From NCBI RefSeq assembly GCF_000286355.1, contig NZ_AJXN01000006.1, forward strand, positions 1-54,631: a stretch of 54,631 nt of DNA, read 5' to 3'. This DNA comes from Kocuria atrinae C3-8. GTDB lineage: Bacteria; Actinomycetota; Actinomycetes; Actinomycetales; Micrococcaceae. Of this stretch, positions 33,961-45,791 are shown piece by piece (position 1 is the stretch's first letter; every line of letters starts with the position of its first letter). The notes under the pieces were generated by a model. That model was not told the origin of the DNA. It saw only the letters and a program-made list of their open reading frames with translations, and searched no databases. The translations under genes and the position numbers were made by a program.

Positions 33961-34190
33961 GCGGCGGGAGAGCATGGCGGGTGCGCAAGCATCGCGCCAT
34001 CGCCGAAGGAGCAAACCCTCCCCGGGAATCTCTCAGGCACCCGAACCGCCGCACCAGGCCACTCTGAAAAGCTCGAACGCGACACTGTGTCGTGGCCGGG
34101 CACCGACGGGGCAGGTCGGTGGGCGCGAGTGATCGCGTGCACCGGCGAAATCTCTCAGGTTGATGTACAGAGCGGGGAGGAACTCACCGG
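33961..34190 (+). ncRNA. Glycine riboswitch, tandem aptamers
   Basis: The stretch between rplL and gcvP contains GCCGAAGGAGCAAACCCTCC and AATCTCTCAGGCACC (first aptamer), then CACCGGCGAAATCTCTCAGG and GTACAGAGCGGGGAGG (second aptamer). These are core conserved elements of the gcvT-type glycine riboswitch, which senses glycine cooperatively and turns on glycine cleavage genes. The region ends 39 bases before the gcvP start. Exact aptamer borders are approximate. Confidence 0.88.
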
Positions 34191-34228
34191 GACTTAGCAC
34201 GCCCTCAAGTAACCCAGGAGACCCTCAC

Positions 34229-37122
<2,894 letters not shown>

Positions 37123-37123
<1 letters not shown>

Positions 37124-38306: not shown

Positions 38307-38355
38307 ACTTCGGGCCGGATACCTCGAACGAGGTACCCGGCCCGAAGTGTTTTTC
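38307..38355 (+). terminator. Strong terminator after gcvT
   Basis: ACTTCGGGCCGG...CCGGCCCGAAGT plus inner TACCTCG/CGAGGTA pairs form a long stem with one irregular position, followed by GTTTTT. Confidence 0.88.
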
Positions 38356-38464: not shown

Positions 38465-38851
38465 TCAGTCTCGGTCCTTGCGGGGCATGAAGGCCCGCAC
38501 CTTGGCCAGTTTGTGGGAACCGTCGCAGTGCGGGGCAATGCTGGTCATCCCGCACCGGCACAGGGCAATGACCTTCCGCTCGGGTGGCAGCGGTTCGGCG
38601 CCGGGCTCTGCGGCCAGCAGGAAATCTCCACGAACCAACAGAGGGCCCTTGGGACACACCGTGATCACGGGGGATTCCACGGAACCGGGCACTGACCGGG
38701 GTTCCGAAGTAGCACTGCCCCTGGACGGCTCCGAGTCATCCCGGAGGTCTCCCTGAGGACGGGGCAGGGGTTGCTCGAGCGGGGCAGAACGATGGGTGAG
38801 TTCCGTCTGGTCGGCGGAGTGCGTCATGTCGTCAGGCACGTGCGAGCTCAT
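38465..38851 (-). CDS. CDGSH-type iron-sulfur protein
   Basis: The 128-residue protein carries CRCGMTSIAPHCDGSHKLA near its C-terminus, the C-x-C...C-x-x-x-H pattern that binds a labile 2Fe-2S cluster in CDGSH (mitoNEET-like) proteins. An acidic, low-complexity N-terminus of about 55 residues precedes it. The ATG overlaps the stop of the upstream HDO gene by four bases (ATGA), so the two are translationally coupled. The role may be electron or cluster transfer to the HDO partner; this is inference. Confidence 0.87.
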   Translation of the reverse strand: MSSHVPDDMTHSADQTELTHRSAPLEQPLPRPQGDLRDDSEPSRGSATSEPRSVPGSVESPVITVCPKGPLLVRGDFLLAAEPGAEPLPPERKVIALCRCGMTSIAPHCDGSHKLAKVRAFMPRKDRD

Positions 38852-39897
38852 GTGCGGGGTTCCGGGGTGAGCAGCGACGATCGTCCCGACATCCACGCTT
38901 CGAGCATCTGATCGCCGGCGTGCCCGTCCACGTAGAGGCACGCGGCCGCTCCGAAGAAGATGTCCTCGGTCAGCTGGGGTTCGTCGTCCACGAGGTTTCC
39001 CACGAGGTCCCGCGCAGCCAACTGTTCGTGAACGGCGTCGGCCTCGACGTGCTCGTCGAAGTACCACGTCACGTCCTGGCGGTACCCGCGTTTGCGGAAC
39101 GCATTGCCGTAGTGCTTGTTAGGGATCGTCGAGGTCATCTCGAAGGCCGCCAGGTGACCCACGTTGGCTCCGCGCAAGCAGCGATTCAGGCCGAACATGC
39201 TGATCAGATTGGTCGATGCCAGGGTGCTGGCGGGGACCAGATCGAGGTAGGCGTCGGGGGTGTCGTCCAAACCGATGTTGCGCATCGTGCGGGCGAAGAT
39301 TTCTGAGTGCACCTTGTCCGGGTGGCCGCCACCGTATTCGTCCGCCTGGATCTCGACCATTGCTGCCTTGGCTCGTCCCTGTAGCTTCGGTATGGACCAC
39401 GTGTGCGGATCGGCCTCGCGCAGTGTGTAGATGGATCGCTGAATCAAGAACTCACGCAGTAGGTCCTCGGTGGCGTTCTTGGCCAGCCACATGGCGGTGC
39501 TCGGCTTGGCCGCCGGTTGGGTCATGGCGAAGAGTGCTTCCGCGGCCTCCTTGCCGTCGCGGGGGAGCGGAGCGGGTAGCTCGACCTCCGCCCGTAACTG
39601 AGCTTCGAAGCGCTGCTCGATACGACCGCGGATCCGGATCAGGTCCGGGTCCCACTCCCATTCGCCGCGCACGAACTCGGCCGGACCGTAGTGCAGTAGA
39701 TAGAGCAGAAAGAGCGAGAGCTGCAGGTCTTCGTCTGTGAGGAGGTCCTGGGACTCGGCCAACGCGCGATCAGTGGCGGCAGCAAGGTGGGCCAACCCAT
39801 CAGTGGTTTCGTGGTCACCCACCAGAAGCGAGATCAATGCGGAACTCACTGATCCTCTGGCGGTCGGCGCAGCGGTTCTTTCCTTGACTATGGTCAC
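38848..39897 (-). CDS. Heme-oxygenase-like diiron (HDO) redox enzyme family protein
   Basis: The 349-residue all-helical protein fits the iron-containing redox enzyme family (PF14518-like): a Glu in the helix EFVRGEWEWDP, EIQADEYGGGHPDKVHSEIF and YFDEHVEADAVHEQLA supply the Glu/Asp/His residues expected for a diiron site. Characterised HDO enzymes oxidise or cleave small molecules with oxygen; the substrate here is unknown. Start GTG at 39897 is chosen because the longer frame adds a basic non-homologous leader. It is intact and operonic with the CDGSH gene. Confidence 0.8.
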   Translation of the reverse strand: MTIVKERTAAPTARGSVSSALISLLVGDHETTDGLAHLAAATDRALAESQDLLTDEDLQLSLFLLYLLHYGPAEFVRGEWEWDPDLIRIRGRIEQRFEAQLRAEVELPAPLPRDGKEAAEALFAMTQPAAKPSTAMWLAKNATEDLLREFLIQRSIYTLREADPHTWSIPKLQGRAKAAMVEIQADEYGGGHPDKVHSEIFARTMRNIGLDDTPDAYLDLVPASTLASTNLISMFGLNRCLRGANVGHLAAFEMTSTIPNKHYGNAFRKRGYRQDVTWYFDEHVEADAVHEQLAARDLVGNLVDDEPQLTEDIFFGAAACLYVDGHAGDQMLEAWMSGRSSLLTPEPRT

Positions 39898-40250: not shown

Positions 40251-41974
40251 ATGGCCATCCACGAATACACGGCAACCGAACGCCGTAGCCGCACACAAGT
40301 AGCCGCAGTACCTCGCTCCAAAGGCCGCATGATCGTCGGCTGGCTCACCTCGACCGACCACAAGACCATCGGATACATGTATCTGATCGCGTCCTTCGTG
40401 TTCTTCTGCGTAGGCGGCGTGATGGCGTTGTTGATTCGCGCCGAACTTTTCGAGCCCGGTCTGCAGATTCTGGAGACCAAGGAGCAATACAACCAGCTCT
40501 TCACCATGCACGGCACGCTCATGCTGCTGATGTTCGGAACACCGTTGTTCATCGGATTCGCCAACGTGTTGGTCCCGCTTCAACTGGGGTCCCCGGACGT
40601 GGCGTTCCCCAGACTCAATGCGCTCGCGTTCTGGTTCTTCCTGTTCGGCTCTCTGGTTGCGATGGCCGGGTTCATCACCCCGCAGGGCGCGGCGTCCTTT
40701 GGGTGGTTCGCGTACGCGCCACTCAACAACACGACCTTCAGCCCGGGGGTCGGGGGAGACCTGTGGCTGTTCGGACTTGCGCTTCAGGGCTTCGGCACCA
40801 TTCTGGGCGGCGTCAACTTCATCACCACGATTCTCTGCATGCGCGCACCTGGCATGACCATGTGGCGCATGCCCATCTTCACGTGGAACATCCTGCTGAC
40901 CTCCATGCTCGTGATCATGCGTTCCCGCCACTGGCGGCCGCACTCTTTGCGCTTGGCATGGACCGGCGCATGGGCGGGCACATCTTCGATCCGGAGAACG
41001 GCGGAGCCATCCTGTGGCAGCACCTGTTCTGGTTCTTCGGTCACCCGGAGGTCTACATCATTGCGCTGCCGTTCTTCGGCATCGTGTCCGAAATCATCCC
41101 GGTCTTCTCCCGCAAGCCGATCTTCGGGTACAAGGGTCTGGCCTTCGCGACCATCGCGATAGCCGCGCTGTCGATCACAGTGTGGGCCCACCACATGTTC
41201 GTCACGGGAGCAGTGGCACTGAGCTTCTTCGCGTTCATGTCCATGATGATTGCGGTGCCCACCGGCGTGAAGTTCTTCAACTGGATCGGCACCATGTGGC
41301 AGGGCTCCGTAACCTTTGAAACGCCCCTGCTGTGGGCCCTCGGATTCCTGTTCACGTTCCTCTTCGGCGGGCTCACCGGCATCATTCTGGCCACTCCGGC
41401 CCTGGACTTCCACGTGTCCGATACGTACTTCGTGGTGGCCCACTTCCACTACGTGGTGTTCGGCACCGTGGTGTTCTCCATGTTCGCCGGATTCTACTTC
41501 TGGTGGCCCAAGTTCACCGGCAAGATGCTCAACGAGCGGCTGGGCAAGGTTCACTTCTGGATGTTGTTCATCGGCTTCCATGCGACCTTCCTCATCCAGC
41601 ACTGGTTGGGCGTCAGTGGCATGCCACGGCGGTACGCCGACTACATGCCGGAGGACGGGTTCACCTGGATGAATCAGCTGTCCACGGCCGGTGCCATGTT
41701 GCTGGGGCTCTCGATGATTCCGTTCTTCTGGAACGTATACATCACCCACCGGCATGCCAAGAAGGTTGAAGTGGACGATCCCTGGGGCTTCGGGTGCTCG
41801 TTGGAGTGGGCCACGTCCTGCCCGCCGCCGCGGCATAACTTTGCATCACTGCCGCGCATTCGCTCCGAGCGTCCGGCGCTCGACCTGCATCATCCGGAGC
41901 TTGCGGCCTTCGCCAGTCAGCAATTCGACGCCGGGAAACCGGTGACCGGGGGCGTCGGTCAACGCGGCACGTGA
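40251..41974 (+). CDS. ctaD: Cytochrome c oxidase subunit I, aa3 type (frame broken once)
   Basis: The restored 574-residue, twelve-helix protein is the catalytic subunit of the terminal oxidase. It has [12 protein letters not shown], a heme-ligand His in [35 protein letters not shown] (CuB ligand region, cross-linked His-Tyr), [10 protein letters not shown], and the heme a/a3 ligands in [15 protein letters not shown]. One G is lost near 40919 (ATGGCGTTC read as ATGCGTTC). Subunits II, III and the bc1 genes are not adjacent, so it is an isolated ctaD, as in several actinobacteria. Confidence 0.95.

Positions 41975-42282: not shown

Positions 42283-45791
<3,509 letters not shown>

Follow-up and report, generated by a model that had tools for sequence, protein, structure and literature searches.

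The genome of Kocuria atrinae C3-8 encodes a heme-oxygenase-like diiron enzyme (HDO) and, in an overlapping gene, a CDGSH iron-sulfur protein, and the pairing of these two genes among relatives is beyond chance. We tentatively read the pair, with somewhat less than even confidence in the reading as a whole, as an N-oxygenase-like diiron oxygenase that has the CDGSH protein as its electron donor. The HDO superfamily itself is known; what is new is the class of [2Fe-2S] partner with which an HDO is paired here. The conserved pair bears on two gaps, namely the small number of HDOs with known functions or redox partners and the CDGSH proteins that stand without a partner enzyme. To our knowledge, bacterial type 4 CDGSH proteins have no partner enzyme that is established. 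On the HDO side, about a dozen members with known function face more than 10,000 sequences according to a 2026 review (PMC13108848 section 4), the main text of which contains neither the word ‘CDGSH’ nor the word ‘ferredoxin’ (PMC13108848). No paper that brings CDGSH together with HDO-type terms was found in the open-access literature, nor was any established function for the pair, as the preliminary description of this DNA had stated.

The window, i.e., the whole stretch of 54,631 nucleotides that was analysed, carries both genes on the minus strand. The HDO gene (39897..38848; GTG start, 349 aa; Pfam PF14518, E 1e-56) and the CDGSH gene (38851..38465; ATG start, 128 aa; Pfam PF09360, E 4.7e-13) share the four bases ATGA (38848..38851, minus strand), in which the stop codon of the former runs into the start codon of the latter. 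The four-base overlap that the preliminary description had placed within 38465-39897 is exact, and ctaD, a COX1 gene by Pfam that starts at 40251 upstream of the HDO gene, is divergent from the pair, as had also been described. Downstream of the CDGSH gene lies a convergent gene that, from its reading frame, we take to be gcvT. Between these two convergent genes there is a strong hairpin followed by a T-run (38307..38348, plus strand; -37.3 kcal/mol, z -6.5), likely a terminator, which was absent from the matches of a simple scan. The gcvP-, ctaD (COX1)- and rpoB-like genes of the window each span at least two overlapping frames (34160-37123, 40251-41974 and 42283-45791), with Pfam support for the GcvP C-terminal, COX1 and Rpb2 parts; these split frames suggest frameshift errors in the draft assembly. 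The HDO and CDGSH frames, unlike them, are intact.

Among 149 genomes of the host order, 43 carry an HDO gene and 52 a PF09360 gene. The CDGSH gene was found within 1154 bp of the HDO gene in 42 of the 43 HDO genomes (median 180), a count from which a remote second HDO place in one genome (G091, 27% identity) was excluded. The lone exception (G032) has its HDO gene on a 3-kb contig and is a genome without a PF09360 match; CDGSH without HDO occurs in ten genomes of the order. The position of the CDGSH gene in the 42 linked genomes varies, being downstream on the same strand in 18, upstream and divergent in 16 and upstream on the same strand in 8. Given these three differing arrangements, the HDO and CDGSH genes have stayed neighbours through rearrangement. 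Nine genera have genomes of both kinds, and in these CDGSH is present in 18 of 19 HDO-positive and in 0 of 30 HDO-negative genomes, with genus labels taken from the survey listings and members outside these listings uncounted.

A second set was made up of 113 loci, comprising the best 80 of 588 relatives, 20 chosen linked genome regions and 13 of 16 plasmid records. In 107 of these 113 loci HDO and CDGSH are no more than 2.5 kb apart; the set is not an unbiased sample because the 20 regions were picked for being linked and the relatives were the 80 best among 588. The other six loci are L040, in which CDGSH is about 8.6 kb from HDO; L051 and L065, which each lie close to a contig end; L165, where the HDO is partial; and two remote proteobacterial loci, L172 and L173. 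Among the loci inspected, no protein that fuses HDO with CDGSH was noticed. The HDO gene of L165 (7022-7468), from a Gordonia plasmid, is annotated short and has no CDGSH gene beside it, and has thus probably decayed. Overlaps of 4 bp are frequent: the HDO stop overlaps the CDGSH start in 43 of 110 loci and the start of an interposed glycosyltransferase gene in 23 of 110, which makes 66/110 for either kind. The direct HDO-CDGSH overlaps in relatives lend support to the translational coupling proposed earlier for the pair.

On the scale of the phylum (246 genomes), the family profile recognised 45 HDO-family places in 41 genomes. CDGSH is located within 2.5 kb at 28 of the 45 places (27 genomes) and is absent from this distance at the remaining 17; the 14 genomes without linkage include five with CDGSH elsewhere and nine with none at all. 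Adjacency in relatives, the loss of which was to count against the proposal in the preliminary description, is therefore kept within the order and broken at these 17 places, and the unlinked members mean that CDGSH is not indispensable to every member of the HDO family. At 53 other PF14518 places outside the family, no CDGSH gene was found within 5 kb (0/53), in a control that covers 48 tandem or weak CDGSH places too; with 28/45 versus 0/53, the linkage is clade-specific. In a tree of 82 rows, which took every second locus of L032-L111 and had L040 entered as CDGSH-positive though its 17-kb locus has none, the CDGSH label changes 4 times, as compared with 16.5 in shuffles, and 10 of the 14 members without CDGSH form one clade (99/99). 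The glycosyltransferase is retained without CDGSH in L178, L181, L188 and L189 (by sequence; three aligned). No small ferredoxin gene was recognised beside the 14 HDO loci without CDGSH; at one of them (L189), a Rieske-like motif occurs in a 511-aa gene located about 2.2 kb from HDO, and the motif matches in other frames near CDGSH-less HDO loci look like chance. In three related genomes from another class of the same phylum (L182, L183, L184), a CDGSH-less HDO gene is situated beside Ku and LigD end-joining genes, identified by Pfam in L183 only and by similar sequence in L182 and L184.

We give the CDGSH protein about an even chance of being the direct electron donor to the HDO. Against this reading stand the lack of a reductase in the HDO-CDGSH module, the 17 unlinked places of 45 in the phylum and the 9 of 41 genomes without CDGSH. 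Alternatively, both proteins may serve one pathway or stress regulon without contact, the CDGSH protein being a redox or NO sensor or performing some other step, and the linkage would then be one of co-regulation. We consider this fairly unlikely. It would account for Mn catalase genes in 7 of 81 loci, for SigB/SigF factors at a Streptomyces locus, for SpoIIE/STAS/CsbD genes at a Kitasatospora plasmid locus, for KatE beside HDO in 3 Kocuria loci (of 81) and for the often divergent position of CDGSH (16/42), but among the 43 genomes of the order that have HDO, a heme catalase is near it in only one (G100; by eye), SigB-like promoter motifs are weakly enriched (7/96 versus 36/1482) and the 4-bp overlaps imply matched synthesis.

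In the three Kocuria loci (L032, L033, L034) the HDO-CDGSH genes are immediately preceded, on their own strand, by a long heme catalase gene. With 3/81 loci, all from Kocuria, but 1/43 HDO genomes of the order, the heme catalase association was treated as local. A SigB-type promoter was set aside as evidence as well: three patterns matched 5 to 7 of 96 HDO upstream regions and 17 to 36 of 1482 others, at uncorrected p 0.009-0.017, and no SigB-type site was seen by eye upstream of the HDO gene of the window. A stress role of the pair might be suspected at some of these loci.

The CDGSH protein of the window has an unusually long N-terminus, followed by the CDGSH domain at residues 68-114 with a single cluster-binding motif from C98 to H113 (38513..38560, minus strand). 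Its best PDB match is 3tbm (E 2e-8), with other CDGSH-domain entries next. The cluster ligands C98, C100, C109 and H113 are intact in the window protein and do not vary among the 16 partner proteins selected for an alignment, 15 of which have Lys or Arg next to the ligand His on its C-terminal side. Judged by its sequence, with one motif and the CxC...C...H ligands, the protein belongs to type 4 CDGSH proteins and would be expected to hold a [2Fe-2S] cluster. Type 4 predominates in Actinobacteria and Firmicutes, over 90% of its members conserve this Lys/Arg, and RsCISD is a homodimer (PMC3174974, in part).

Distant HDO operons deserve attention with regard to the function of this partner. The remote match in Azospirillum (L173) is an HDO-cupin protein, and the next gene, with a 4-bp overlap, encodes a Rieske [2Fe-2S] protein. 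HDO-cupin genes followed by an overlapping Rieske gene are also present in Gloeothece, Methylobacterium and Pantoea (L174-L176; overlaps of 4, 10 and 20 bp), the cupin match being below the Pfam cut-off in Methylobacterium and Pantoea. All four operons are on plasmids. Those of Gloeothece, Methylobacterium and Pantoea contain an ATP-grasp gene, and the latter two a gene with the annotation of ribosomal protein L11 methyltransferase that scores far below the cut-off of that family; possibly, the four clusters are guanidine-oxidising and have a dedicated Rieske donor. A fifth remote match, in Tistrella (26.5% identity), has no Rieske gene beside it and matched no Pfam family. Among 20 loci drawn from the 53 PF14518 places of other clades, one showed a Rieske-like motif in a search that is not fully sensitive, as it found 3 of the 4 known Rieske genes and missed that of L176, which was seen by Pfam.

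Rieske is a fold known for electron transfer. Differing [2Fe-2S] folds in one operon position are as an electron-donor role predicts, and by this analogy the Rieske protein in the place of CDGSH in four distant operons favours electrons over iron; in the HDO-cupin operons themselves, the Rieske protein probably re-reduces the diiron centre. The iron reading holds that the CDGSH protein donates iron or a [2Fe-2S] cluster and thereby loads or repairs a labile HDO diiron site. CDGSH proteins are able to hand over clusters, which counts in its favour. So does the lability of HDO clusters (PMC13108848 section 4). Besides the Rieske proteins in the equivalent position of the four HDO-cupin operons, it has against it those HDO family members that occur in genomes without any CDGSH, and we regard it as unlikely.

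The HDO of the window has a complete set of predicted metal ligands. These are E161 (codon 39415..39417), E187 and H197 (39307..39339), E253 (39139..39141), and H283, D287 and H290 (39028..39051), all encoded on the minus strand and all invariant in 21 of 21 aligned sequences, i.e., the window protein together with 20 homologues from the host order, each 47-62% identical to it. In phmmer and profile alignments, they fall on E189, E215, H225, E281, H311, D315 and H318 of SznF, where E189 is presumably the additional seventh ligand of a set of three histidines and four carboxylates (3H/4C), and E161 is accordingly a candidate for this role. In a wider set of 11 proteins including the four HDO-cupin proteins, E187, H197, E253, H283, D287 and H290 were again invariant and E161 was present in 10 of 11. 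The six SznF residues other than E189 are metal-binding, and their Ala variants are inactive (PMC11705231, in part). The extra glutamate of the 3H/4C set comes from an auxiliary helix (PMC13108848 section 4), and SznF, an N-oxygenase, was the first case of such a set (PMC13108848). By its residues alone, the window HDO has the set of three histidines and three carboxylates (3H/3C) of the HDO superfamily as well as the extra Glu of the SznF-like one. The Glu/Asp/His ligands, the absence of which would have spoken against the proposal in the preliminary description, are thus all in place, and its diiron-type assignment is supported by the ligands and by the predicted fold.

The AlphaFold model of the HDO (pLDDT 91.2) has the heme-oxygenase-like helical fold of the PF14518 type, in agreement with Pfam, which gives PF14518 alone and no cupin domain for this protein. 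The model is nearest to HrmI (Z 33.9 over 316 residues, 2.5 A, 22% identity), followed by SznF (Z 29.1), RohS (Z 28.2) and FlcD (Z 25.7). CtCADD, BesC, PolF and UndA score Z 18.5 at most over about 205-222 residues, with BesC, PolF and UndA at 17 or less over about 210-220 residues. HrmI and SznF match the model along the whole chain, including the N-terminal helical domain. The modelled architecture resembles the N-oxygenase branch, a resemblance that is no proof of the reaction; HrmI, the closest fold, is 3H/3C, so that fold likeness does not fix the reaction of the HDO.

The enzyme could instead be an oxidase of another kind (desaturase, C-C cleaving or self-modifying), with the CDGSH protein still as its electron donor. 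A shared ligand set does not keep HDOs from diverging (PMC13108848 section 11), and FlcD, at the Z score given above, is near in fold too; the nearest solved structures, HrmI, SznF and RohS, are however N-oxygenases, the whole-chain matches with the N-terminal helical domain are to HrmI and SznF, and it was in SznF, likewise an N-oxygenase, that a 3H/4C set first came to light. On balance, another oxidase seems improbable. A true heme oxygenase that degrades heme with the help of an electron donor, as the Pfam name Haem_oxygenas_2 and HbpS-like genes near HDO in 7 of 81 loci might suggest, is hardly credible in view of the complete and invariant diiron ligand set, the far lower scores of real heme oxygenases (HmuO, Z 13.1) and the restriction of the HbpS neighbours to loci from Arthrobacter or Pseudarthrobacter.

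Several accessory genes were identified near the pair in relatives, as counted from tblastn matches on the 113 loci. A GT2-type glycosyltransferase is present in 37 of the loci and a HemK2/MTQ2-type methyltransferase in 16, which are Streptomyces-, Kitasatospora- and Nocardia-type loci, and the two never occur together (glycosyltransferase in 0/16 methyltransferase loci). The earlier remark that no biosynthetic genes surround the pair holds for the window but not for these relatives; in the host genome (draft, 221 contigs, 79% completeness) no glycosyltransferase of their kind was found. The glycosyltransferase gene lies between HDO and CDGSH on the same strand in 21 of the 37 loci and is also found in other classes of the phylum. 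In the host order, a search with one query at E 1e-15 detected it in 10 of 149 genomes, all ten with HDO (one partial match) and six with the genes adjacent. Its model shows a GT-A-like fold with two long C-terminal helices and is Foldseek-nearest to the archaeal mannosyltransferase PcManGT (TM about 0.57), a likeness from which neither donor nor acceptor follows.

A Kitasatospora plasmid encodes a YbdK ligase, a dimethylargininase and an HDO facing CDGSH and the methyltransferase; this is the only one of the 113 loci with a dimethylargininase neighbour. YbdK/GCS2 ligase genes are near HDO in 13 of 113 loci, at spacings from 98 bp to 7.6 kb, and within 6 kb at no fewer than three places in the order (G005, G024, G091), and the ligase is a possible further accessory. 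The second, remote HDO of G091 (G091:C2:139177-140109; 27% identity) lies ~4.7 kb from the family member, and a GCS2 ligase gene (142032-142874) is located between the two. On a Streptomyces plasmid (L161, 548-4381), HDO, CDGSH and methyltransferase genes are found near a gas vesicle gene cluster. Arsenic chemistry, considered for the HemK2/N6AMT1 likeness and a weak arsenosugar-glycosyltransferase score, was dropped, the match being far below cut-off.

Returning to the pair as an oxygenase with its electron donor, we propose that it may function as a two-component system. The HDO would hold a diiron centre in a SznF-like 3-His/4-carboxylate set. In its diferrous form it would bind O2 and oxidise a small molecule, the most likely target being an amine or guanidine nitrogen in an amino acid or in a conjugate of one. 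The CDGSH protein, as a type 4 [2Fe-2S] NEET protein, would be a dedicated one-electron donor that re-reduces the diferric HDO between turnovers and would itself be reduced by a general cellular reductase encoded outside the locus. The membrane-type GT2 glycosyltransferase in some relatives, or the HemK2-type methyltransferase in other lineages, would act in the same pathway. The fold and the one dimethylargininase neighbour are weak pointers to an amino acid with an amine or guanidine group as the substrate; a common metabolite, as the preliminary description had it, is one possibility; a guanidine or arginine-derived substrate, or even NO-type chemistry via N-hydroxyarginine, we rate as possible and not higher. 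The pair points to an oxidised metabolite and, if the proposal is correct, to an undescribed, possibly glycosylated or methylated, N-oxygenated product, and bacterial type 4 CDGSH proteins would gain a physiological enzyme partner. That hundreds of actinobacterial species possess a diiron N-oxygenase with a dedicated NEET (CDGSH) donor, with no antibiotic cluster noticed and sometimes among stress genes, is conceivable, if doubtful.

Compared with known systems, SznF, the streptozotocin N-oxygenase composed of HDO and cupin, is alike in the HDO domain, in all seven ligand positions and in the N-terminal helical domain, whereas the window protein is without the cupin and only about 20% identical. 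SznF acts after an arginine-guanidino methyltransferase and before glycosylation (PMC11705231, in part); this forms a loose parallel to the methyltransferase and glycosyltransferase of the relatives, in which the methyltransferase is of the HemK2 type rather than the arginine-guanidino type. The plasmid HDO-cupin operons share with the window an adjacent [2Fe-2S] gene with overlapping ends, which encodes a Rieske protein there and a CDGSH protein here. HrmI and BelK are lysine N-oxygenases; HrmI, the best structural match to the window HDO, belongs to natural product biosynthesis, is 3H/3C (PMC13108848) and by alignment has a residue other than Glu at the position of E161. Assays of RohS used PMS/NADH as reductant (PMC10724926, in part). 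MboA-MboB, the mangotoxin acetylenase and its redox partner, resembles the two-component system proposed here in that an HDO has a dedicated [2Fe-2S] partner from the same gene cluster, but MboB is an NAD(P)H flavin-[2Fe-2S] reductase and not a CDGSH protein, and MboA is 3H/3C, desaturates a peptide and needs MboB for the second oxidation (PMC13185094, in part). In 2026, MboA-MboB was put forward as perhaps the first dedicated HDO-redox partner pair to be characterised (PMC13185094, in part). With the RsCISD class of type 4 CDGSH proteins, the window protein has in common the single motif and the ligands of 3 Cys + 1 His. The available part of PMC3174974 gives no physiological partner enzyme for that class, whereas for the window protein such a partner is predicted here, namely the HDO beside which the CDGSH gene lies in 42/43 HDO genomes of the order, in 107/113 collected loci and at 28/45 places phylum-wide.
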